A DNA stretch of 64,000 nt, taken from an uncultured Oscillospiraceae bacterium (lineage in GTDB: Bacteria > Bacillota > Clostridia > Oscillospirales > Oscillospiraceae). This document shows positions 18,801 through 49,383 of this stretch, in pieces (position 1 is the first letter of the stretch; the number at the start of each line of letters is the position of its first letter). The stretch lies in assembly GCA_934565655.1 (NCBI GenBank), contig CAKTIE010000003.1:81228-145227 (forward strand), in the 5' to 3' direction. The position numbers and the translations under genes are program-made. Under the pieces are notes generated by a model. The model did no database searches. It had not been told where the DNA came from and saw only the letters and a list, made by a program, of their open reading frames with translations.

Positions 18801-18943
18801 ATTGAACAGCACCCGATGAGCCTTTCAGAATTCCGGCGGAAAACTGAAAGGGGAGGGGACTCTGGAGAATCCCATTGAATTGGGTGCCGAAGGTGTAAGG
18901 CGCGAAAGCGCTGAATCTCTCAGGCAAAAGGACAGAGAAGACA
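18801..18943 (+). ncRNA. Glycine riboswitch, single aptamer with upstream ghost hairpin
   Basis: The conserved glycine aptamer core is at 18859-18943: CTCTGGAGAA, GGGTGCCGAAGGTGTAAGG, then CTCTCAGGCAAAAGGACAGA. No second full aptamer exists. Upstream (18831-18851) CCTTTCAG and CTGAAAGG pair into a hairpin that may be the degenerate ghost partner of a type-2 singlet, a class that mostly controls transporters. The 5' strand CTCTGGAGAA (18860-18869) can also pair with 18962-18971, which overlaps the terminator stem, so switching by attenuation is visible. It occupies the gene-free stretch 18654-19021. Confidence 0.93.
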
Positions 18944-18968
18944 TTTGAGTGTCTGCCTTGTTTCTCCG

Positions 18969-19021: not shown

Positions 19022-20440
19022 ATGCAAGCCATCGAATCCGTACTGTTCCCCATCGTATGTAAGATCAATGAGTATCTGAGCAACTACATTCTGGTATTCC
19101 TGCTGATCGGCGTAGGTCTGTGGTACACCATCAAGACCCGCTTTGTGCAGGTGCGCTGCTTCGGCGAGGGTATGCGCAAGGTGTTCGGCAACCTGAAGCT
19201 GAAGGGCGGCAAGCACGATTCCGGTATGAGCTCCTTCCAGGCGCTGGCTACCGCCATTGCCGCGCAGGTGGGTACCGGCAACATCGTGGGTGCTTCCGGC
19301 GCCATCCTGACCGGCGGCCCCGGCGCGATCTTCTGGATGTGGGTCATCGCCTTCTTCGGCATGGCCACCATCTACGCTGAAGCCACGCTGGCCCAAAAGA
19401 CCCGTATCGTTGACCCTGACGGCACGGTTCGCGGCGGCCCCGTGTACTACATCACCACCGCGTTCAAGGGCGGCTTCGGTAAGTTCCTTGCAGGCTTCTT
19501 CGCCGTGGCTATCGTGCTGGCGCTGGGCTTCATGGGCTGCATGGTGCAGTCCAACTCCATCGGCTCCACCATGAATACTGCCTTCGGCATTCCCACCTGG
19601 GTGTCCGGCGTGATCCTTGTCATCATCTGCGCGATTATCTTCCTGGGCGGTGTGCAGCGTCTGGCCTCCGTTACTGAGAAGATCGTTCCCATCATGGCCG
19701 CTATCTTCCTGCTGGGCGGTCTGGCCGTCCTGGTGGCCCGCATCACCTACATCCCCGCTACTTTCGCCATGATCTTCAAGTATGCTTTCCAGCCTCAGGC
19801 CATCATCGGCGGCGGCTTCGGCTATGCCATCAAGACCGCCATCAGCCAGGGCGCCAAGCGCGGCCTGTTCTCCAATGAGGCCGGTATGGGCTCTACCCCC
19901 CACGCGCATGCTCAGGCCAACGTGGATCATCCCCACGATCAGGGCGTAGTGGCCATGATCGGCGTGTTTATCGATACCTTCGTGGTGCTGACCCTCAACG
20001 CGCTGGTCATCATTTCCACCCTGTATACCGCCGATGGCCCTCTGGCGGAGTGCGGCGCTGCCGCTGCCAGCACCACGCTGACCAAGGCCAATCTGGCCCA
20101 GACCGCCTTCGGTACCGTGTTCGGCGAGAAGCTCGGCGCCATGTTCGTGGCGGTGTGCCTGTTCTTCTTCGCGTTCTCCACCGTGCTGAGCTGGAACCTG
20201 TTCGGTAAGATCAACGCCAACTATCTGTTCGGCAAGAAGAATCCCCGCCGCTGCACCGTGGTGTACAGCATCATCGCCCTGGTGTTCGTGTTCATCGGCA
20301 CCCTGGCCAGCAACGATCTGGTGTGGGAGCTGACGGATATGTTTAACAACCTGATGGTCATCCCCAACGCCATCGCCCTGTTCGCCCTGACCGGCATGGT
20401 GGTCGCCATGTGCAAGGAGGGCAAGCTGGCCAAGAAGTAA
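19022..20440 (+). CDS. Sodium:alanine/glycine symporter, AGCS family
   Basis: A 472-residue membrane protein with about 11 helices. FQALATAIAAQVGTGNIVGA near residue 75, GPGAIFWMWVIAFFGMAT near 98, and GAKRGLFSNEAGMGSTPHAH near 280 are AGCS signatures. It imports small neutral amino acids with Na+. The upstream glycine riboswitch indicates that glycine is its physiological substrate or signal. A good AAAAGGAGAG ribosome site precedes the ATG; a strong terminator follows. Confidence 0.95.
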   Translation: MQAIESVLFPIVCKINEYLSNYILVFLLIGVGLWYTIKTRFVQVRCFGEGMRKVFGNLKLKGGKHDSGMSSFQALATAIAAQVGTGNIVGASGAILTGGPGAIFWMWVIAFFGMATIYAEATLAQKTRIVDPDGTVRGGPVYYITTAFKGGFGKFLAGFFAVAIVLALGFMGCMVQSNSIGSTMNTAFGIPTWVSGVILVIICAIIFLGGVQRLASVTEKIVPIMAAIFLLGGLAVLVARITYIPATFAMIFKYAFQPQAIIGGGFGYAIKTAISQGAKRGLFSNEAGMGSTPHAHAQANVDHPHDQGVVAMIGVFIDTFVVLTLNALVIISTLYTADGPLAECGAAAASTTLTKANLAQTAFGTVFGEKLGAMFVAVCLFFFAFSTVLSWNLFGKINANYLFGKKNPRRCTVVYSIIALVFVFIGTLASNDLVWELTDMFNNLMVIPNAIALFALTGMVVAMCKEGKLAKK

Positions 20441-39850: not shown

Positions 39851-40444
39851 TCAGCCTACCGTCTGATAGCGGGCGATGATCTGGTCAGCGATGGCCTTGC
39901 GGGTGACGCAGCGATCCATGGCCTGCTTTTCGATGAAGCGGTGGGCCTCCGCCTCCGTCATACCGGCCTGATCGATCAGCAGCCATTTCGCCCGGTTGAC
40001 AGTGCGGATCTCCATCATCTTTTCCTCGATGGAGGCGGTTTTCTGCTCCATCTTCCGCAGCCGCTCCCGCGTGCCGCACAGCAACTGCAGGGATTGCAGG
40101 ATCAGCTGGGGGGACGTGGGCTTTTGCAGCAGCAAAATCCCATAGGGCGACAGCCGCGCCGAAAGGTCGGCGTAGTGCTCCGCCTTCACCAGCAGCAGCA
40201 CGCCCGCGCTGCTGCCGTCTACCACATGCAGGGCCAGCTTGGTGCCGAATTCATCCGGCAGGGGAGCGCTGATGATCACGATGTCGAAGGTGCGCTCCAG
40301 AAGGCAGCGCCGTGCGCTGGCCACGTCGCTTACGGCGTGCAGCGGCGTATAGCGGTCCTCCGGCAGCAGGTCACGGAGGGACGCGGGGAACTTGCTTCCG
40401 CTGGATACCACCAGCACACTGTATGTCTGCTGAGTCAGCTCCAT
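39851..40444 (-). CDS. ANTAR domain response regulator
   Basis: A 197-residue protein with a divergent receiver domain (residues 1-120: SVLVVSSGSKFPASLRDLL, TFDIVIISAPLPDEFG) and a C-terminal ANTAR domain (about 130-190: SIEEKMMEIRTVNRAKWLLI, then GMTEAEAHRFIEKQAMD). The receiver lacks the clear phosphorylation Asp, so it may be phosphorylation-independent. ANTAR proteins bind paired RNA hairpins and prevent termination. It is the last gene of the glutamate synthase operon; attenuators lie in the leaders of this operon and the divergent gene. AAAGGAGGG precedes the ATG at 40444. Confidence 0.93.
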   Translation of the reverse strand: MELTQQTYSVLVVSSGSKFPASLRDLLPEDRYTPLHAVSDVASARRCLLERTFDIVIISAPLPDEFGTKLALHVVDGSSAGVLLLVKAEHYADLSARLSPYGILLLQKPTSPQLILQSLQLLCGTRERLRKMEQKTASIEEKMMEIRTVNRAKWLLIDQAGMTEAEAHRFIEKQAMDRCVTRKAIADQIIARYQTVG

Positions 40445-40476: not shown

Positions 40477-41685
40477 TTATCGGGTGTAGTAGGCAATGAT
40501 GGTCTGGGGCAGGAGCTGGTGGATAAAGGAGCTGCTTTCCGCGGCGGTCTTTGCCTGCGCCAGCGTGGCGGGCAGCGTGCGGAACTGGGCCTTGACCTGC
40601 TCCGGCGCGCTGAAGAAGTTGATGTCCGCCGCCTCCGGCAGCACCAGCTGGCGGCGGATGCCGTCCAGTCCGGCGTGGATCAGCAGCGTAAAGGCCAGAT
40701 AGGGATTGCACAGCGGGTCGGGGGAGCGCAGCTCCGCCCGGCGGTATTCGCCCTGCGCGGCGGGGATGCGGATCAGCTGGGAGCGGTTCTCGCTGGACCA
40801 GGAGATGTAGCGGGGCGCCTTGCTGCCGCCGAAGCGGTGATAGGAGGCGTCCACCGTGTTGAGGAATGCCGTCAGCTCCGTGATATGGGACAGGATGCCC
40901 GCGATGATGTGGGGCATCACGTCGCCGCCGCCGGCGCTCCGGGCGGAGATGTTGATATGCATGCCGTTGCCGGGCTGGCCGTTCAGAGGCTTGGGGGAGA
41001 AGTCCGCCGCCAGCCCGTTGCGCACCGCCACGGTGTTGACCACCGCCCGGAAGGTGACGGCGTTGTCCGCCGCCGTCAGCGGCTCGGAATACCGGAAGTC
41101 GATCTCGTTCTGGCCTGGACCCTGCTCATGGTGGGAGCACTCCGGCCGGATGCCCATCTGCTCCAGCGTCAGGCAGATCTCCCGCCGGACGTTTTCGCCC
41201 TTGTCCTCCGGGGCGATGTCCATGTAACCGGCGTGGTCATAGGGCTGCTTGGTGGGCTCGCCCAGCTCGTCCCGGTGGAAGAGATAGAACTCCATCTCCG
41301 TGCCGAAGGCGAAGGTAACGCCCATTTCCGCCGCCGCGGCGATGGCCTGCTTCAAAAGCTGGCGGCCGTCCGCCTCGAAGGGGGTGCCGTCCGGCCGCGC
41401 GATGCCGCAGAACATCCGGGCCACCCGTCCGTGATCCGGCCGCCACGGCAGCATGCACAGCGTGCCGCTGTCGGGATGCAGGAACAGGTCGGAGTGTACC
41501 TCGTCTCCGAAGCCGGGAATGGCCGAGGCGTCAAAGGCGATGCCATATTCAAACGCGCGGTCAAGCTCGTCCGGATGGATGGAGATATTCTTCTGCTTTC
41601 CGGACAGGTCGCAGAATGCCAGGCGGATGAACTTCACGTCCTCCTCCGCCACATACTGCTTGATCTCGTCCTTTGAATACTTCAT
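40477..41685 (-). CDS. glnA: Glutamine synthetase, type I-like, short form
   Basis: A 402-residue glutamine synthetase: metal/ATP segments GTEMEFYLF, HHEQGPGQNEIDFRYSEPL, NGMHINIS, and NRSQLIRIP with AELRSPDPLCNPYLA are all present. It makes glutamine from glutamate and ammonia. It is about 40 residues shorter than a typical GSI and I see no adenylylation loop. It stands between the GXGXG gene and the ANTAR gene in the same operon. The ATG at 41685 follows AGGCAGGATCG. Confidence 0.9.
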   Translation of the reverse strand: MKYSKDEIKQYVAEEDVKFIRLAFCDLSGKQKNISIHPDELDRAFEYGIAFDASAIPGFGDEVHSDLFLHPDSGTLCMLPWRPDHGRVARMFCGIARPDGTPFEADGRQLLKQAIAAAAEMGVTFAFGTEMEFYLFHRDELGEPTKQPYDHAGYMDIAPEDKGENVRREICLTLEQMGIRPECSHHEQGPGQNEIDFRYSEPLTAADNAVTFRAVVNTVAVRNGLAADFSPKPLNGQPGNGMHINISARSAGGGDVMPHIIAGILSHITELTAFLNTVDASYHRFGGSKAPRYISWSSENRSQLIRIPAAQGEYRRAELRSPDPLCNPYLAFTLLIHAGLDGIRRQLVLPEAADINFFSAPEQVKAQFRTLPATLAQAKTAAESSSFIHQLLPQTIIAYYTR

Positions 41686-41704
41686 AATGCGATCCTGCCT
41701 TTCG

Positions 41705-42427
41705 TCAGTTTGCCACATACATCTGCTGGTAGGGGGTTTTGCTGTCCGGTGTGATCACGGTATAGGCGCTGCTCAGCATGGAGGCGGCGTCGCAGCCGAA
41801 CAGGCGGCAGTATTCCCGCACATAGGGCGCGAATTCCGCAAAGTCCTCCGCCGTGGCCGGGCGTGAGGTCACCTGGGGCGGAAATTGCACATTGCTCACG
41901 TCGCCCCGGAACACCATCTTTCCGCCGTGCATGCCGGTGCAGGGGAAGAAGCCCACCACGGGCCGCCCGTCGGTGTGCAGCGCCAGCACCAGTATCAGGC
42001 CGCCTGCCTGATACTCGCCCAGAAAGCTGCCGGCCCGCCCGCCGATAACGATCACAGGCTTGTGCTCCTGATAGGCCTTCATATGGATACCGGCCCGGTA
42101 ACCGGCGTTGCCCTGTATATAAATTTCGCCGCCCCGCATGGCATAGCCCGCCGCGTCGCCCGCGCTGCCGTGGATCACGATGCGTCCGGCGCTCATGGTG
42201 TCGCCCACGGCGTCCTGCGCGTTGCCGTTGACGGTGATCTCGGCCCCGTTGAGATACGCGCCCAGCGCGTTGCCGGGGATGCCGTTGATCTCCAGCTTTT
42301 TGCCACTCATACCGGCGGCGATGAACCGCTGGCCCAGGCAGCCGCAGATCCGGCATTCCTTTCCCGCACCGCGTATGGTCTCGTTCAGCGCGGAGAAGGA
42401 GAGGTCGTTGGCCTCAATGAAGTTCAT
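41705..42427 (-). CDS. Glutamate synthase GXGXG (GltB C-terminal) subunit
   Basis: A 240-residue stand-alone GltB C-terminal domain. A right-handed beta-helix of GXG-type turns is visible: IRGAGKECRICGC, INGIPGNALGAYLNGAEI, IHGSAGDAAGYAMRGGEIYI. In whole glutamate synthase this domain supports the FMN domain. It is the third piece of the split enzyme in this operon. The ATG at 42427 has a perfect AGGAGG; an upstream in-frame stretch is not used. Confidence 0.9.
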   Translation of the reverse strand: MNFIEANDLSFSALNETIRGAGKECRICGCLGQRFIAAGMSGKKLEINGIPGNALGAYLNGAEITVNGNAQDAVGDTMSAGRIVIHGSAGDAAGYAMRGGEIYIQGNAGYRAGIHMKAYQEHKPVIVIGGRAGSFLGEYQAGGLILVLALHTDGRPVVGFFPCTGMHGGKMVFRGDVSNVQFPPQVTSRPATAEDFAEFAPYVREYCRLFGCDAASMLSSAYTVITPDSKTPYQQMYVAN

Positions 42428-42492
42428 ATTGTACCACACCTCCTGATGTTTTTCCATGTGTTTTCTCATAAAAAATCGTGATAGCAGCCATT

Positions 42493-43998
42493 TCATTCTC
42501 CCGCGTGGGCGATGCCCAGGATCGCCAGCTCCTTTTCCGTCAGGTGTACGCCCCGCAGCATGACACGGTTGCCCCGCAGGGCCTCAATGGAGTTGATGCC
42601 CATGCCGCCCATCATTTCCTTGATCTCGTGCTTCCACGCGGTCACCAGATTTACCAGCCGCCGGGTGGCCTCGTCGGGATCCAGCCGCTTCACCAGATCG
42701 GGCCGCTGGGTGGCGATGCCCCAATTGCAGCGCCCCGTCTGGCAGCTGCGGCACAGGTGGCAGCCCATGGCCAGCAGTGCGGCCGTGGCGATATAGCAGG
42801 CGTCCGCGCCCAGCGCGATGGCCTTTACCACATCCGCCGCCGAGCGGATGCTGCCGCCCGCGATCAGGGAGACGCTATTGCGGATGCCCTCGTCACGGAG
42901 CCGCTGATCCACCGCCGCCAGCGCCAGCTCGATGGGGATGCCCACATTGTCCCGGATGCGGGTAGGCGCCGCGCCGGTGCCGCCCCGGAAGCCGTCGATG
43001 GCGATGATGTCCGCGCCGCTACGGGCGATGCCGCTGGCGATGGCGGCAATGTTGTGGACAGCCGCCACCTTGACGATCACGGGCTTTTTGTACTGAGTGG
43101 CCTCCTTCAGGGAGTAGACCAGCTGCCGCAGATCCTCAATGGAGTAGATATCGTGGTGGGGAGCGGGGGAAATGGCATCCGCGCCCTCCGGGATCATGCG
43201 GGTGCGGGACACGTCGGCTGTGATCTTGGCGCCGGGCAGATGGCCGCCGATGCCGGGCTTTGCGCCCTGTCCCATCTTGATCTCGATGGCCGCGCCGGTG
43301 TTCAGGTATTTTTCCTGTACGCCGAACCGGCCTGAGGCCACCTGTACGATGGTGTTTTCCCCGTAGCAGTAGAAGTCCTCATGCAGGCCGCCCTCGCCGG
43401 TGTTGTAATAGATGCCCAGCTCACGGGCGGCGCGGGCCAGGCTCTCATGGGCGTTGTAGCTGATGGAGCCGTAGCTCATGGCGGAGAACAGGATGGGCAC
43501 CGACAGCTCCAGCTGGGGCGGCAGATCGGTACACAGGCTGCCGTCGGCATTGCGCCGGATGGCGGAGGGCTTTTTCCCCAGGAATACCCGTGTTTCCATG
43601 GGCTCCCGCAAGGGATCGATGGGCGGGTTCGTCACCTGGGAGGCGTTGATGAGAATGTTGTCCCAGTACACCGGCAGGGGCTTGGGGTTGCCCATGGAGC
43701 TGAGCAGCACGCCGCCGGTATCCGCCTGCTTGTAGATCTCCTTGATGGTATCGCTCTGCCAGTTGGCATTTTCCCGGAGACAACAGTCGTTCTTCACGAT
43801 CTTCAGCGCGTGTGTGGGACAGAAGGAAACGCAGCGCTGACAGTTGACACACTTTGTCTCGTCGCTGAGCATTCGCTTGCCCTCGCTGTCATAGGTGTGT
43901 ACGCCGTTGGCGCACTGGTTTTCGCAGACGCGGCAGCAGGTGCAGCGGGCGTCATTGCGGATCACCTCAAATTCCGGTATGATGTAGTGGATGGACAT
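42493..43998 (-). CDS. Glutamate synthase FMN subunit with N-terminal ferredoxin domain
   Basis: A 501-residue protein. Residues 18-65 are a 2x[4Fe-4S] ferredoxin module (CTCCRVCENQC, CVNCQRCVSFCP); the rest is the TIM-barrel FMN domain of GltB with AMSYGSISYNAHESLARAA, GAKPGIGGHLPG and IDGFRGGTGAAPT, and CHLCRSCQTGRCNWGIATQ near residue 430 for another cluster. It converts 2-oxoglutarate plus ammonia from glutamine to glutamate, using ferredoxin-type electrons. Its ATG overlaps the amidotransferase stop (TGATG). Confidence 0.93.
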   Translation of the reverse strand: MSIHYIIPEFEVIRNDARCTCCRVCENQCANGVHTYDSEGKRMLSDETKCVNCQRCVSFCPTHALKIVKNDCCLRENANWQSDTIKEIYKQADTGGVLLSSMGNPKPLPVYWDNILINASQVTNPPIDPLREPMETRVFLGKKPSAIRRNADGSLCTDLPPQLELSVPILFSAMSYGSISYNAHESLARAARELGIYYNTGEGGLHEDFYCYGENTIVQVASGRFGVQEKYLNTGAAIEIKMGQGAKPGIGGHLPGAKITADVSRTRMIPEGADAISPAPHHDIYSIEDLRQLVYSLKEATQYKKPVIVKVAAVHNIAAIASGIARSGADIIAIDGFRGGTGAAPTRIRDNVGIPIELALAAVDQRLRDEGIRNSVSLIAGGSIRSAADVVKAIALGADACYIATAALLAMGCHLCRSCQTGRCNWGIATQRPDLVKRLDPDEATRRLVNLVTAWKHEIKEMMGGMGINSIEALRGNRVMLRGVHLTEKELAILGIAHAGE

Positions 43999-45089
43999 CA
44001 ATAGGCACCTTCTTTCACTTTTACGATGAAGGGTTCGCCGCCCATGGGCGCGTAGAAATGCTCCGCGTTGGGCTCCATGACGCGGATGGCGGCCTCCTCG
44101 CTGGCGATGAACACCCGGTCGTCCTTCTCCGCCGTTACCATGGAGCGCAGCTTCAGGCGGTCATTCAGGGCCATCAGTCCGCCGTTGAAGCCCAGAATGA
44201 TGGAGAACGGCCCCGTGATCAGCAGGCTGGGGTACATGGTGCGCAGATACGTCAACTGCCGCGCCACCGGCGCGGCCTTGCCCCGGATGGTGCTCCAGAA
44301 GGGGGCGGCGATCACCGAAGCCGTTTCCTCCAGCGTCAGCCCCTGACGCCGCAGGAGATAGTCAGCGATGTAGGTGATGACCTCCGTATCCGTTTGCAAA
44401 GTGCATTTATAACCGAACATCTCGATATACCGGCGGTTGGCGTCGTAGGAGGATATCTCGCCGTTGTGGACGATGGACCAGTCCAGCAGGGTAAAGGGAT
44501 GCGCGCCGCCCCACCAGCCGGGGGTGTTGGTAGGATAGCGGCCATGGGCCGTCCAGCTGTACGCCTCGTACTCCTCCAGACGGTAGAACCGCCCCACATC
44601 CTCCGGATAGCCCACGGCCTTGAAGGTGCCCATGTTCTTGCCGCTGGAGAACACATACGCGCCCTTTAATTTGGTGTTGATCTCCATGACGGTGCGGGCC
44701 ACGAATTCCTTCTCATCCAATTGCAGACGGGAAAGCACGGATTTCAGCGGCGATACGAAGTACCGCCAGATCAGCGGCACGTCGGTGATCTCCGGAATGA
44801 TCCGGATGGGGATCACCTCCGCCTGCACGATCTCGAAGCCCTCTTTTAATAATGTCTCACACTCCCGGCGGGTAGTGTTGTCCTCAAAGAAGATGTGGAA
44901 TGCGTAAAAGTCCCGGTATTCCGGATAGATGCCATAGGCGGCAAACCCGCCGCCCAGACCGTTGGAGCGGTCATGCATGGGAACCATACTGTTTATCACG
45001 GCCTCGCCGGTCATACGTTTTCCCTCGCGGGAAATGACGGCGGAAATAGCGCATCCGGACGGGATACGGACTTGTCCCTCCAGCTTCAT
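43998..45089 (-). CDS. Glutamate synthase glutaminase (class II amidotransferase) subunit
   Basis: A 363-residue class II glutamine amidotransferase, the first domain of the split enzyme. It has a candidate nucleophile Cys13 in SGCAISAV, HGRYPTNTPGWWGGAHPF near residue 185 and VHNGEISSYDANRRYIE near 215. The nucleophile is internal, so N-terminal processing would be required, or the Cys acts after trimming. I choose the ATG at 45089, because AGAAAGG lies 9 bases upstream; two earlier in-frame ATGs are poorly spaced. First gene of the operon, behind an attenuator. Confidence 0.88.
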   Translation of the reverse strand: MKLEGQVRIPSGCAISAVISREGKRMTGEAVINSMVPMHDRSNGLGGGFAAYGIYPEYRDFYAFHIFFEDNTTRRECETLLKEGFEIVQAEVIPIRIIPEITDVPLIWRYFVSPLKSVLSRLQLDEKEFVARTVMEINTKLKGAYVFSSGKNMGTFKAVGYPEDVGRFYRLEEYEAYSWTAHGRYPTNTPGWWGGAHPFTLLDWSIVHNGEISSYDANRRYIEMFGYKCTLQTDTEVITYIADYLLRRQGLTLEETASVIAAPFWSTIRGKAAPVARQLTYLRTMYPSLLITGPFSIILGFNGGLMALNDRLKLRSMVTAEKDDRVFIASEEAAIRVMEPNAEHFYAPMGGEPFIVKVKEGAY

Positions 45090-45106
45090 AGCGTTCATCC
45101 TTTCTG

Positions 45107-45168
45107 AAAAAAACGCAAAGGCGTTCACTTACACAGGACAAATGTACCTGGTAAATGAACGTCTTTGC
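45107..45168 (-). terminator. Leader attenuator of the glutamate synthase operon
   Basis: On the minus strand GCAAAG.CGTTCATTTAC...CAGG loop CCTG...GTAAGTGAACG..TTTGC forms a long stem, followed by GTTTTTTTC. It ends 18 bases before the start codon and begins about 10 bases after the predicted transcript start. It would stop transcription unless an antiterminator acts. Confidence 0.85.
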
Positions 45169-45183
45169 TCATCTTGGTTGGGG

Positions 45184-45212
45184 ATTATAGCACGGCTGCA
45201 TCATAAAGTCAA
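45184..45212 (-). promoter_or_regulatory. Sigma-A promoter of the glutamate synthase operon
   Basis: On the minus strand TTGACT (45207-45212), 17 bases, TATAAT (45184-45189). Confidence 0.9.
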
Positions 45213-45246
45213 TCGACGAAACGGCAAAAATTGTGGAAAACGGAGA

Positions 45247-45275
45247 TTGACAAATTCGTATAGGGCGTATATAAT
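45247..45275 (+). promoter_or_regulatory. Perfect-consensus sigma-A promoter of glutamine synthetase III
   Basis: TTGACA (45247-45252), 17 bases, TATAAT (45270-45275). The -35 box lies only 35 bases from the -35 box of the divergent promoter, so one regulator could reach both. Confidence 0.93.
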
Positions 45276-45291
45276 TTCGCCCATCGAAGGC

Positions 45292-45330
45292 AAAGGCGTC
45301 TTGGAGGTTGGTCTCCTTGACGCCTTTTTT
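45292..45330 (+). terminator. Leader attenuator of glutamine synthetase III
   Basis: GGCGTC (45295-45300), UU mismatch, GGAG, hexaloop GUUGGU, CTCC, UU, GACGCC (45319-45324), then TTTTTT. It begins about 13 bases after the predicted transcript start and ends 30 bases before the ATG. Confidence 0.88.
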
Positions 45331-45359
45331 GCATTATTTTGAAAGAAAAGGAGTGGATC

Positions 45360-47459
45360 ATGATGAGCACAGTACCGGAATACTTCGGCAGTTTGGTTTT
45401 TGACGACCGCGTCATGAAAGCACGGCTTCCCTATGAAGTCTACACCTCGCTGAAAAAAACGATCGATGAGGGCGGCAGCCTGAATAACGAAGTGGCCAAC
45501 GCTGTGGCAGACGCCATGAAGGATTGGGCCGTCGAGCATGGCGCCACCCACTTTACCCATTGGTTCCAGCCCCTGACCGGCATCACCGCCGAAAAGCACG
45601 ACAGCTTTATCGCTCCGTCTCCTGATGGCGGCGTCATCATGGAGTTCTCAGGCAAGGAGTTGATCCAGGGCGAGCCGGATGCCTCCAGCTTCCCCTCCGG
45701 CGGCCTGCGCGCCACCTTTGAGGCCCGCGGCTATACCGCATGGGATCCCACCTCATATGCCTTTATCAAGGATAAGGCACTGTGCATCCCCACGGCGTTC
45801 TGTTCCTACGGCGGCGAAGCGCTAGATAAGAAAACGCCGCTGCTGCGCTCCATGCAGGCCCTGAACAAGCAGGCCATGCGCATCCTTGAGCTGTTCGGCA
45901 ACGAGGATGTGAAATGCGTCCGTACCTCCGTGGGCCCGGAGCAGGAGTATTTCCTGGTGGACCGCGAGATGTTCGACAAGCGCAAGGATCTGATCTTCTG
46001 CGGCCGCACCCTGTTCGGCGCGAAACCTCCCAAGGGTCAGGAGATGGACGACCACTACTTCGGCGCCATCAAGCCCCGTGTGGCGGCCTACATGGCCGAC
46101 CTGAACGAGGAGCTGTGGAAGCTGGGCATTCTGGCCAAGACCGAGCATAACGAGGTGGCTCCCGCCCAGCATGAGCTGGCGCCCATCTACACCACCACCA
46201 ACGTGGCCACCGACCACAACCAGCTGACCATGGAGATCATGCAGAAGGTGGCCGCCCGCCACGGTCTGGTGTGTCTGCTCCATGAGAAGCCCTTTGACGG
46301 CGTCAACGGCTCCGGCAAGCACAACAACTGGTCCATCGCCACCGATACCGGCGTGAACCTGCTGACCCCCGGCGAGACGCCCTATCAGAACGCCCGGTTC
46401 CTGCTGTTCCTGTGCGCCGTCATTCAGGCGGTGGACGATTATCAGGATCTGCTGCGGCTGTCCGTGGCCACCGCCGGCAACGATCACCGTCTGGGCGCCA
46501 ACGAAGCGCCTCCCGCCGTGGTGTCCATCTTCCTGGGCGACGAGCTGACCGCCATTCTGGACGCCATCGAGAAGGATGAGCCGTACAGCGGCACGGAGAA
46601 GCGGGTCATGAAGCTGGGCGTCCATGTGCTGCCCAAGTTTATCCGCGACACCACCGACCGCAACCGCACCTCGCCCTTCGCCTTCACCGGCAATAAGTTC
46701 GAGTTCCGTATGCTGGGCTCCTCCAACTCCATTGCCTGCACCAATATCATGCTGAACGCCGCCGTGGCGGAGTCCCTGAAGCAGTATGTCGACATTCTGG
46801 AGAAGGCCGACGACTTTGAGTCCGCCCTCCATGATCTGATCCAGAAGACCATCAAGGAGCACAAACGCATCATCTTCAACGGCAACGGCTATGACGATGC
46901 CTGGATCAAGGAGGCCACCGAGGAGCGGGGCCTGCTGAACCTGAAGACCACCCCCGACGCGTTGCCCTGCCTGCTGGAGAAGAAGAACGTGGACATGCTG
47001 ACCTCCCTGAAGGTCATGTCCGAGGCGGAGATCCGCTCCCGCTATGACATCACGCTGGACAACTACCGCAAGGCCGTCAATATCGAGGCCCAGACCATGG
47101 TGGACATGGCCCGCAAGGAGATCCTGCCTGCTGTGGAGGACTACACCGCCTCTCTGGCGGAGAGCCTGGCCGCCAAGAAGGCCGCCGTTCCCACCCTCAG
47201 CGGCAAGTATGAGACGGGCCTCATCGAGAAGCTGTCCGGCCTGACCGACCAGATCGCGCTGGCCGTCGAGGAGCTGGAGACCGCCCTGAGCGACTATCAC
47301 AAGATCGACGATGTGACCGACGCCGCTTTCGTCATCCGGGATGTGGTCATTCCTAAGATGGAGGCCCTCCGTGTTCCCTGCGATCAGGCAGAGCAGTATA
47401 CCGCCGCCGACTTCTGGCCGTTCCCCACCTATGGTGATCTGCTGTTCGGCGTGAAGTAA
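45360..47459 (+). CDS. glnN: Glutamine synthetase type III
   Basis: A 699-residue type III glutamine synthetase: [20 protein letters not shown] near residue 62, [14 protein letters not shown] near 195, [12 protein letters not shown] near 320 and [18 protein letters not shown] near 380. This is the dodecameric GSIII class common in Bacteroidetes and Clostridia. AAAAGGAG precedes tandem ATGs (45360 and 45363); either may be used. It is divergent from the operon that holds the type I enzyme and has its own leader terminator. The symbol follows Bacteroides/Clostridium usage. Confidence 0.95.
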
Positions 47460-47520: not shown

Positions 47521-47790
47521 ATCAACAAAGGCGTTGGAGCCGGAAAAAGTATCCGGGAAACGCGGGCACAGCGAGCATGGGACGGTGGAAGCCATGCGCC
47601 CGACGCCCCGGCGAAGAACATCCGGCAAGCCGCAAGCCCAACAGGGGAGACACTCAGTAAGCGCGCCGGAGCTGCCGCCCGTTATCGCGGCAAGGCTTTG
47701 TTGGAAGCCTGAATGAGTTCAAAGATAGGTGGCACCGCGGGTCACAGCAGCTCGCCCTATCACATTGCTGATCTTATTTTACAAGATCTG
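47521..47790 (+). ncRNA. T-box riboswitch, asparagine-specific
   Basis: The T-box core GGTGGCACCGCGG is at 47729-47741, ending with the UGGC bulge (47730-47733), whose C would pair with a G discriminator as in tRNA-Asn. The Stem I specifier candidate is AAC at 47617-47619. The start AACAAAGGCGTTGGAG (47524 on) is typical of T-box leaders. A terminator alternative can form between GATAGG (47724) and CCTATC (47756 region), followed by U-rich sequence. It occupies the gene-free stretch 47460-47802 and precedes asnB. Confidence 0.92.
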
Positions 47791-47802
47791 GAGGATCATA
47801 AA

Positions 47803-49383
47803 ATGTGTTCTATTATGGGTTATTGTGACGTTTGTACCGATACCGCCGCATTTGCCGACGGCTTTATGGAAACGGTCTCCCGCGGCCCCGACGACAGCCG
47901 CATCGTGGACACCGGCCACGGCCTGCTGGGCTTCCACCGCCTGGCCATCATGGGCCTGACGCCGGAGGGGATGCAGCCCTTCCAGATGGATGGCAGCTAT
48001 GTGGTCTGCAACGGCGAGATCTACGGCTATGAGGCCTGCAAGGCCAAGCTGCTGAAGAAGGGCTATACCTTCCGCAGCGGCTCCGACTGCGAGATCCTGC
48101 TGCCGCTGTACAAGGAGTACGGCGTGGAGATGTTCAAAATGTTGGATGCGGAGTATGCCCTGATCCTGTTCGACGGCGAGACGAAGCAGTTCATCGCCGC
48201 CCGCGATCCCATCGGCATCCGCCCGCTGTACTACGGCTATGACAAGAAGGGCGTGATCGTCTTTGCCAGCGAGCCGAAGAACCTGGTGGGCATGTGCGAT
48301 AAGGTCATGCCGTTCCCTCCGGGACATTACTACAAGGACGGTCAGTTCGTCTGCTACGATGATATCGCAAAGGTAAAGCAGTTCTGCTATGACGATCTGG
48401 ATACCGTGTGCGCCAACATCCACGACAAGCTGGTGGCCGGCGTGAAGAAGCGGCTGGTGGCCGACGCCAAGGTGGGCTTCCTGCTGTCCGGGGGTCTGGA
48501 TTCCTCGCTGGTGTGCGCCATCGCCGCCCGCGAGAGCAAAGCGCCCATCCGCACCTTTGCCATCGGCATGCGGGAGGACGCCATCGACCTGAAATACGCC
48601 CGCATCGTGGCCGACTACATCGGCAGTGACCATACCGAGGTCATCATGACCAAGGAGCAGGTGCTGGACTCTCTTGATTTCGTCATCAAAATGCTGGGCA
48701 CCTTTGACATCACCACCATCCGGGCCAGCATGGGCATGTACCTGATGTGCAAGTGGATCCATGAGAACACCGACATCCGCGTGCTGCTGACCGGCGAGAT
48801 CTCCGACGAGCTGTTCGGCTATAAGTACACCGACTTCGCGCCCTCTCCGGAGGCGTTTCAGGAGGAAGCGGAGAAGCGTATCCGGGAGCTGCACATGTAC
48901 GATGTGCTCCGCGCCGACCGCTGCATCTCTGTCAACTCGCTGGAGGCCCGCGTACCCTTCGGTGATCTGGACTTCGTCCGCTATGTGCTGGCCATCGACC
49001 CGGCCAAGAAGGTCAACATTTACAGCAAGGGCAAGTACCTGCTGCGCCACGCTTTTGAAGGAGACTATCTGCCTTATGAAATTCTTTACCGGGAAAAGGC
49101 AGCCTTCTCCGACGCGGTGGGCCACTCCATGGTGGATCACCTGAAGGCCTTTGCCGAGGATTGCTATTCCGACGAGCAGTTCCAGCAGCGCCGCAAGCGC
49201 TTTTCCCATGCCCAGCCCTTTACCAAGGAATCCCTCCTTTACCGCGAGATATTTGAAAAATACTACCCCGGTCAGTCTGAGATGATCGTGGACTTCTGGA
49301 TGCCCAACAAGAGCTGGAAGGGCTGCGACGTCAACGACCCCTCCGCCCGTGTGCTGTCCAACTACGGCGCCAGCGGGCAATAA
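47803..49383 (+). CDS. asnB: Asparagine synthase (glutamine-hydrolysing)
   Basis: A 526-residue AsnB: N-terminal class II amidotransferase with Cys2 (MCSIMGYCD), SRGPDD, GFHRLAIMG and CNGEIYGYE; C-terminal ATP-pyrophosphatase domain with SGGLDSSLV near 236 and LTGEISDELFGYKY near 330. It forms asparagine from aspartate, glutamine and ATP. I choose the ATG at 47803 because Cys must be residue 2 and GGAGGATCATAAA precedes it. The T-box upstream makes it respond to uncharged tRNA-Asn. Confidence 0.96.
   Translation: MCSIMGYCDVCTDTAAFADGFMETVSRGPDDSRIVDTGHGLLGFHRLAIMGLTPEGMQPFQMDGSYVVCNGEIYGYEACKAKLLKKGYTFRSGSDCEILLPLYKEYGVEMFKMLDAEYALILFDGETKQFIAARDPIGIRPLYYGYDKKGVIVFASEPKNLVGMCDKVMPFPPGHYYKDGQFVCYDDIAKVKQFCYDDLDTVCANIHDKLVAGVKKRLVADAKVGFLLSGGLDSSLVCAIAARESKAPIRTFAIGMREDAIDLKYARIVADYIGSDHTEVIMTKEQVLDSLDFVIKMLGTFDITTIRASMGMYLMCKWIHENTDIRVLLTGEISDELFGYKYTDFAPSPEAFQEEAEKRIRELHMYDVLRADRCISVNSLEARVPFGDLDFVRYVLAIDPAKKVNIYSKGKYLLRHAFEGDYLPYEILYREKAAFSDAVGHSMVDHLKAFAEDCYSDEQFQQRRKRFSHAQPFTKESLLYREIFEKYYPGQSEMIVDFWMPNKSWKGCDVNDPSARVLSNYGASGQ

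Follow-up and report, generated by a model that had tools for sequence, protein, structure and literature searches.

A single-hexaloop attenuator class, probably ANTAR-controlled, at a glutamate synthase and glutamine synthetase locus of an uncultured Oscillospiraceae bacterium

Introduction

A 64,000-nucleotide stretch of an uncultured Oscillospiraceae bacterium (contig CAKTIE010000003.1, positions 81,228 to 145,227; hereafter the window) encodes a glutamate synthase (GOGAT) operon and, divergently, a glutamine synthetase (GS) of type III (GSIII). The last gene of the GOGAT operon encodes an ANTAR-domain protein, and the intergenic region, i.e., 45099-45359, holds two divergent promoters and two short leaders. 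The question raised by this locus is by which RNA structure the ANTAR protein could act on both leaders, and from where it would receive its signal. The initial annotation, made from the letters alone, had supposed that one ANTAR protein acts through paired hairpins and balances GS with GOGAT.

The two leaders are very probably ANTAR-controlled transcription attenuators of a single-hexaloop type and part of a nitrogen/glutamine regulon, and the ANTAR protein probably receives its signal from a partner protein. These conclusions draw on the sequence and its alternative folds, on conservation, covariation and co-occurrence, and on gene order and residue losses; from these, the transcription start, the binding of the protein, the sense of regulation and the sensor role are inferred. 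The published ANTAR hexaloop consensus is A at position 1 and G at position 4, i.e., A1/G4 (Ramesh 2012, PMC3369931; Walshe 2022, PMC8934654). NitR of Clostridium saccharobutylicum is reported to induce GS and GOGAT genes on nitrogen limitation by antitermination (review PMC6316151).

Leader structures in the window

The features of the two leaders are listed below. R1 is a model built from the leaders of relatives, and both window sites belonged to its training set.

45184..45212, - strand, GOGAT operon promoter TTGACT-17-TATAAT, 11/12 consensus match, TG precedes the -10 box
45153..45174, - strand, putative GOGAT antiterminator hairpin AGATGAGC[AAAGAC]GTTCATTT, 8 bp, 9 nt after -10 (R1 match 45189-45152, 38.8 bits)
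45107..45168, - strand, GOGAT leader intrinsic terminator with U7, by folding
45247..45275, + strand, GSIII promoter TTGACA-17-TATAAT, 12/12 consensus match
45287..45302, + strand, putative GSIII antiterminator hairpin AAGGC[AAAGGC]GTCTT, 5 bp, 11 nt after -10 (R1 match 45270-45306, 35.2 bits)
45292..45330, + strand, GSIII leader intrinsic terminator with U6, apical loop GUUGGU, by folding

The divergent consensus-like promoters of the initial annotation were recovered, with 34 bases between the two -35 boxes. Its leader terminators also held. Folded alone, the - leader forms a long hairpin followed by U7 (-31.7 kcal/mol, z -5.9), and the + leader a long hairpin followed by U6 (-25.4 kcal/mol, z -3.8). 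Neither terminator was flagged by a strict terminator-pattern search, probably due to internal loops or mismatches in the stems.

In each leader, one hexaloop hairpin overlaps the intrinsic terminator. The hexaloops, i.e., AAAGAC on the GOGAT side and AAAGGC on the GSIII side, both carry A1 and G4 and are of ANTAR type. The hairpin and the terminator are mutually exclusive because both draw on the terminator 5' arm, which includes the hexaloop together with the hairpin's 3' strand. The initial annotation had taken GUUGGU as the ANTAR site and regarded the canonical match as incomplete. This sequence caps the GSIII terminator, and apical loops of this kind vary in size and sequence; the real hexaloops lie in the terminator 5' arms, and their match to A1/G4 is complete. 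Paired hairpins had been expected as well, and each window leader has only one. The GCAAAG-RCGT sequence noticed in both leaders is real, and it is the most conserved part of the leader across relatives.

In the Rfam scan of the window, neither leader had any family at gathering score and the relaxed threshold yielded chance-level matches only; the Rfam search of the leaders gave no ANTAR match. R1, run over the 64-kb window, matched exactly these two sites, both of which belonged to its training set.

Conservation and covariation in relatives

The relatives were the best 80 of the listed loci encoding glutaminase-domain homologues, and they are hence close relatives. Nearly all of them carry RATGAGCAAAGGCGTTCAT or a variant directly after the -10 box, followed by a terminator. 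In the common fold, the hexaloop AAAGGC is enclosed by a stem between ATGAGC and GTTCAT. Stems differ in the divergent GSIII leaders, where AAGGC[AANGGC]GTCTT is common.

A promoter-anchored test was applied with the loop sequence left free. A leader was counted when a hexaloop hairpin with a stem of 5 bp or more lay 4-13 nt past the -10 box, and the counts were compared with the expectation from dinucleotide shuffles. Four GOGAT and six GSIII upstream regions without a promoter scoring 9/12 were left out, and the two window leaders were counted within the sets. Among GOGAT leaders with a scored promoter, 66/77 had the hexaloop hairpin (8.4 expected), and 65 of these 66 were A1/G4 (0.50 expected). 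For GSIII leaders, the counts were 45/54 (6.2 expected) and 43/45 (0.33 expected). Loop statistics are taken as evidence from this test, in which the loop was unconstrained; G4 and A or G at position 1 were imposed when the 124 core-hairpin leaders used below were picked, hence also in the alignment and in R1. The full arrangement, i.e., the hairpin, a pairing downstream arm and a U-tract, was present in 76/81 GOGAT and 52/60 GSIII leaders and in 0/705 mononucleotide shuffles.

As a specificity control, all promoter-like sites scoring at least 11/12 in the 80 loci were inspected. Within the GOGAT and GSIII leader zones, 104/119 such sites had an A1/G4 hairpin. Elsewhere, the hairpin followed 13/101 sites, all before gdhA (9), purC (3) or purA (1), and the other 88 had none. 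Eight of these 13 genes were named by NCBIfam and the other five, all gdhA, by their N-termini.

A less biased family sample comprised 24 GOGAT leaders, 22 of them with a scored promoter, and in 17 of these 22 the hairpin was detected by the script. Visual inspection added the two leaders without a scored promoter (L146 and L154), L143 and L159 with 4 bp, and L161, where the hairpin lies further downstream.

Hexaloops with G at position 1 and stems kept were observed in L039, L050, L054 and L077, and in the family sample in L143 and L151-L153. Their sequences were GAAGAT, GATGAT, GAGGAT, GAGGAC, GAAGGT, GAAGGC and GACGGC.

The compensatory changes that the initial annotation had thought of are present in the stem. 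Alignment A1 comprised 106 of the 124 core-hairpin leaders, and duplicates and hairpins more than 13 nt from the -10 box were excluded. Its stem cells were paired in 93.5%, against 36-50% with slid partners, and double-sided changes numbered 137 cells, against 5-24 with slid partners. The closing C-G pair was invariant, and the next pair was G-U in 94/106 leaders. Further compensated stems were found in the wider samples, i.e., CAGAGC/GCTCTG (L149), GTAAAC/GTTTAC (L175) and AATGAC/GTCATT (L171).

Co-occurrence and regulon

The element and the ANTAR gene occur together across genomes. In the family sample, i.e., 101 genomes from the family of the closest relative (R1 at E 0.1, ANTAR at E 1e-15), 20 genomes had an R1 match and 35 an ANTAR match. 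ANTAR was present in 16/20 element-positive genomes against 19/81 of the others (Fisher p 5e-6, uncorrected for relatedness). The class sample comprised 291 genomes (R1 at E 0.05, ANTAR at E 1e-20), of which 45 were element-positive. Here ANTAR was present in 30/45 element-positive genomes against 47/246 others (Fisher p 6e-10, again uncorrected for relatedness), and in 18/19 of the genomes with two or more elements. Under the filters applied to large sets, R1 passes over weak sites.

The genes behind the element were surveyed for 66 R1 matches, i.e., 30 of 32 family matches, 7 chosen from 25, and 29 class-sample matches. Nitrogen, glutamine-using or purine genes followed 55 of them. These were GOGAT glutaminase (27), GSIII (12), gdhA (3), pyrG (2), purF (2), glmS (2) and purC (2), and one each of glnA, pseudo-GS (the GS-like gene described below), asnB, large-subunit gltB and a GatD-like amidotransferase below its NCBIfam cut-off. 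The presence of the element before gdhA, asnB, glnA, glmS, pyrG and purine genes points to a nitrogen/glutamine regulon. With the gdhA, purC and purA leaders of the specificity control included, its theme is the production and consumption of glutamine and ammonia. The balance of GS with GOGAT in the initial annotation was therefore too narrow, and the GOGAT and GSIII sides should rise and fall together.

The other 11 matches were of mixed kind. They preceded ATP synthase subunit a (L104, genome G012), a TRAP-type TAXI solute-binding protein (L133, G096) and one gene without an NCBIfam name (L115, G095); three had no convincing gene, and five short loci (L107, L124, L125, L196 and L197) were counted without a downstream gene.

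The ANTAR protein and its proposed glutamine synthetase-like partner

The genes of the locus are arranged as follows.

39851..40444, - strand, ANTAR protein with a pseudo-receiver, i.e., without phosphoacceptor Asp (PF03861)
40477..41718, - strand, pseudo-GS (GS413), a shortened type-I glutamine synthetase of 413 aa (PF00120/PF03951)
41705..42496, - strand, glutamate synthase GXGXG domain (PF01493)
42493..44001, - strand, glutamate synthase FMN / 4Fe-4S domain (PF01645)
43998..45098, - strand, gltGAT, glutamate synthase glutaminase domain (PF00310), start ATG 45098 or 45089
45360..47459, + strand, GSIII, glutamine synthetase type III (PF12437 and PF18318), start ATG 45360 or 45363
47713..49383, + strand, asnB, asparagine synthase B (PF00733 and PF13537)

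The GOGAT operon thus runs through three glutamate synthase domains, the pseudo-GS and the ANTAR gene, with GSIII and asnB on the divergent side. The linkage of the ANTAR gene with GS and GOGAT genes is seen in the window, and the gene order is conserved in relatives.

The ANTAR assignment of the initial annotation is sound: PF03861 scored 52.4 bits in the window protein against a gathering cut-off of 27.3. Among solved structures, the query of 195 aa, which lacked the first two residues, matched Rv1626, AmiR and EutV. A structure model from the single sequence was poor (mean pLDDT 60.0) and was replaced by a model from a 40-sequence alignment (85.9). Among the top Foldseek matches of this predicted structure, no full-length ANTAR protein had a higher TM-score than RNA-bound EutV (6WW6), at 0.74. 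In EutV, G4 is contacted by Lys149, Glu160 and the aromatic residue at 164 (Walshe 2022, PMC8934654). The equivalents here are K in 56/56, E in 56/56 and H in 55/56 copies, and the Arg142 equivalent is Ile; this correspondence presumes a numbering offset of 2 between EutV and the query. One ANTAR protein probably acts on both leaders, as initially annotated, given the common hairpin class, the co-occurrence and the covarying pairing.

The receiver domain lacks its usual phosphorylatable residue. At the phosphoacceptor position, 53 of the 56 copies have Asn and the remaining 3, the window copy among them, have Ser; none has Asp. With Asp replaced in 56/56, the domain can be called a pseudo-receiver, and phosphorylation of that residue by a kinase is unlikely. 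A partner protein is therefore the probable source of the signal, and the strongest candidate for this role is the GS-like protein encoded directly upstream.

The pseudo-GS gene lies 29-109 bases upstream of the ANTAR gene on the same strand in all 56 loci, out of 81, with an ANTAR match. It keeps this place where GOGAT is missing: in family genomes without a GOGAT match, it was directly upstream in 11/14 ANTAR stretches, once in pieces. In the class sample, it was upstream in 29/29 of the best-scoring ANTAR loci examined, with gaps of 37-141. In genome G106, the pseudo-GS and ANTAR genes alone form a unit behind their own element. In L006, a pseudo-GS was present without a detected ANTAR gene.

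Against the TIGR00653 GlnA equivalog, the window copy of the pseudo-GS scored 338.7 bits (cut-off 429.15); for comparison, a GlnA encoded behind another element (L118) scored 542.5. Its C-terminus is shorter than that of GS. The catalytic flap Glu (E304 in 4S0R numbering) was replaced in 65/65 aligned pseudo-GS (K59 N2 R2 I1 A1), with Lys in the window copy. In the wider sample of 29, the position was K23 E2 S1 D1 C1 N1, i.e., Glu was lost in 27/29. Metal, ATP and substrate residues are mostly kept in comparison with active GS of known structure, and E196 is changed to Lys in 11/65.

Two copies among the most diverged, L235 (genome G307) and L237 (genome G263), keep the flap Glu and have a longer C-terminus; L237 scores below the GlnA cut-off. 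The same two genomes carry a single-hexaloop element before glmS (L205 and L207). These copies may represent an earlier stage with active GS as the partner.

By analogy with AmiC and AmiR, the pseudo-GS would be a sensor that binds substrate or product with poor or no turnover, and that holds or releases the ANTAR protein. The chances are about even that this GS relative without flap Glu is a dedicated nitrogen sensor, probably for glutamine, which gates a kinase-independent ANTAR pseudo-receiver and thereby a genome-wide regulon through transcript-start single-hexaloop attenuators.

It is also possible that the pseudo-GS is an active enzyme on another amine. An active ligase of this kind, or a GS of low activity, in either case with no role in signalling, deserves real weight but is rated below even. 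In almost every copy, the remaining ligands of metal, ATP and glutamate are conserved; two diverged copies retain the flap Glu, and in many genomes the gene is cotranscribed with GOGAT. A purely enzymatic role sits poorly with a place directly before the ANTAR gene even where GOGAT is missing and throughout the class loci, with the two-gene unit in G106, and with the loss of the C-terminal part and the sub-threshold GlnA score of the window copy.

Alternative explanations

Several observations weigh against a single-hexaloop attenuator under ANTAR control, and they are gathered here. The GSIII hairpin in the window is weak, i.e., -2.6 kcal/mol. The median hairpin energies of -5.2 (GOGAT) and -3.6 kcal/mol (GSIII) are also weak relative to the terminators, as expected if a protein is needed. 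Most double changes in the stem separate the GOGAT class from the GSIII class and few fall within either, so the events are fewer than the cells. The scripted test was failed by 12/77 GOGAT and 11/54 GSIII leaders, most of which, though not all, have the motif at another spacing, and 7/131 leaders lacked any core hairpin even by a looser test. In the family sample, the hairpin seems to be absent from L160 and L162. G stands at loop position 1 in 3/106 aligned leaders and in more of the family sample, which agrees less well with the consensus. The ANTAR gene was missing at E 1e-20 from 15/45 element-positive class genomes, which may be incomplete. At 25/81 loci, the stretch examined had no ANTAR match, and some of these contigs end early. 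The GOGAT loci L006, L013, L037, L051, L059 and L062 have long flanks and no ANTAR match beside the operon; they reach far enough that the regulator, if present, lies elsewhere. Among GSIII leaders, 22/60 carry the complete module, terminator included, two or three times and are thus not strictly single-hexaloop. Finally, EutV antitermination needs its first hairpin, and deletion of this hairpin reduces induction (Ramesh 2012, PMC3369931), so a single site might not suffice.

One alternative is classic phospho-dependent control by two hexaloops, as in EutV, with a second hexaloop or a kinase overlooked here. The ANTAR protein shares its domain family with EutV, its model is similar to EutV in the RNA-bound form, and the tandem modules would suit such control. 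The probability of this explanation is nevertheless low. The hairpin lies 9 nt (GOGAT) and 11 nt (GSIII) past the -10 box in the window, and commonly 6-11 nt in relatives. There is therefore no room upstream for a second EutV-type hexaloop, and the transcript would start at or just before the hairpin. Downstream, a second A1/G4 hexaloop hairpin of at least 4 bp was not consistently present (1/75 GOGAT and 4/49 GSIII leaders), and six-base apical loops of the terminators were A1/G4 in 0/10. The dual-hexaloop arrangement defined in 2012, i.e., hairpins P1 and P2 with a short linker, is absent from the window leaders. The loss of the phosphoacceptor Asp in every copy also argues against phospho-dependent control. 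The tandem GSIII modules, e.g., L072 with three, L047 and L064, are spaced 61-122 nt and once 422 nt. This is far above the EutV linker, where an addition of 20 nt abolishes antitermination (Walshe 2022, PMC8934654). Taken with the effect of deleting the first EutV hairpin, the linker effect indicates that the layout here differs from the EutV model.

According to Walshe 2022 (PMC8934654), each isolated hexaloop binds EutV and the minimal ANTAR target is one hexaloop hairpin to which an ANTAR dimer can bind; single sites were suggested for cases where polymerase sets no time limit, the breadth of their use was left open, and bioinformatics on the matter was called for. By sequence and fold, the window leaders fit this minimal target.

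Plain terminators are a further explanation, in which the sole role of the A-rich 5' arm is to pair with the U-tract, as happens in two-way terminators, and the hexaloop hairpin forms incidentally. Both leaders do fold best as terminators, and the loop AAAGGC is complementary to GCCUUU at the terminator foot, so that A1-A3 could be explained by terminator strength alone. This is hardly likely. A terminator does not need the upstream ATGAGC or AAGGC to pair back, yet the A1/G4 hairpin was found in 65/77 and 43/54 leaders against 0.5 and 0.33 by chance. The compensating stem changes count against plain terminators too, and the ANTAR co-occurrence and the restriction to nitrogen and purine genes would be left unexplained.

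A DNA operator for a repressor or activator, i.e., an inverted repeat at the transcript start without RNA structure, would agree with the fixed distance after the -10 box. It is very improbable. The frequent second pair from the loop, G-U, can form in RNA but would be mismatched in DNA; GOGAT and GSIII leaders have different half sites and yet retain the single-stranded loop; and the later tandem copies do not stand at a promoter start.

Leader-peptide attenuation, in which the GOGAT transcript would start near an ATG and encode a leaderless peptide (ATG AGC AAA GGC GTT CAT), is scarcely credible: ATGAGC is indeed the commonest stem start in GOGAT leaders (TGAGC/GTTCA in 54/65), but no ATG stands at this place in GSIII leaders (AAGGC, GAGAC and others), and the hairpin persists in those GOGAT leaders that have GTGAGC, ATAAAC or AGAAC instead. 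The operator and the leader peptide were both rejected, on the G-U pair, the tandem copies and the stem variation.

Other features of the window

A glycine riboswitch aptamer (RF00504, 59.3 bits) was found at 18852-18945 on the + strand, just 5' of ORF 19022-20440. By its sequence, this ORF resembles a sodium:alanine/glycine symporter gene.

Discussion

The following mechanism is proposed. RNA polymerase would begin transcription at a 5-8 bp hairpin or no more than a few bases away from it. The hairpin loop, R-A-N-G-R-Y, carries A1 and G4 in the window. With the ANTAR protein on the hairpin, the 5' arm of the terminator would be occupied, and polymerase would read through into GSIII-asnB on the + strand and into GOGAT-pseudoGS-ANTAR on the - strand. 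With no ANTAR protein on the hairpin, the far more stable terminator would form and the transcript would end near +60. Because the ANTAR gene is the last gene of the GOGAT operon, the circuit would feed back on itself. Antitermination is possibly gated by the pseudo-GS instead of a kinase. By analogy with NitR, read-through would be expected when glutamine or ammonia is short.

ANTAR control of GS and GOGAT in Clostridium is already known. NitR of Clostridium saccharobutylicum and acetobutylicum (PMC6316151, PMC4676874) is likewise an ANTAR protein adjoining GS and GOGAT genes, and the regulon seen here, which includes gdhA, purines, pyrG and glmS, is wider than in the available portions of those accounts. 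In the cultured, non-pathogenic relative Clostridium thermocellum DSM 1313, Clo1313_2030 carries an ANTAR annotation within a cluster (2030-2036) that includes GOGAT genes, and Clo1313_2031 carries that of a glutamine synthetase (PMC4676874). ANTAR sites near glutamate synthase genes of Desulfotomaculum (PMC3369931) also concern glutamate and glutamine genes, and they were found with a dual-hairpin model. EutV/EutW of Enterococcus faecalis (PMC3369931, PMC8934654) shares the ANTAR domain, the A1/G4 hexaloop, the overlap with a terminator and the nitrogen-related genes. Unlike EutV/EutW with its P1 and P2, the leaders here have one hexaloop per terminator and the hairpin at the transcript start, and the receiver is without the usual phosphoacceptor Asp and without an adjacent kinase gene.

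The proposed pairing of a ligand-binding partner with an ANTAR protein and no kinase resembles AmiC-AmiR (1QO0) and NasS-NasT (PMC3795266), and AmiR too has a receiver-like domain. The partner proposed here is GS-like, whereas those partners bind amide or nitrate, and the pairing is proposed here from gene adjacency. The use of glutamine synthetase as a nitrogen signal to a regulator recalls GS-TnrA of Bacillus, although GS is there an active enzyme and the target a DNA-binding protein (PMC6316151). For the single-hexaloop layout, the breadth of the regulon and the pseudo-GS/ANTAR pair, no description was found in a literature search that lacked most subscription papers.

It is reasonable to hold with high confidence that these ANTAR attenuators, with a single hexaloop where the transcript begins, form a real and widespread class predictable from sequence, and that this class controls both sides of this locus together with a nitrogen/glutamine regulon. 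This would be a conserved class in which one hexaloop, placed where transcription starts, acts on a moving polymerase. As a compact RNA-protein switch, i.e., about 20 nt and a terminator, it would be suited to testing the minimal ANTAR mechanism. The pseudo-GS is a candidate for an enzyme that was withdrawn from catalysis and put to new use as a sensor of its own product. Through this element, the nitrogen regulon of many uncultured gut Clostridia would become readable from sequence.

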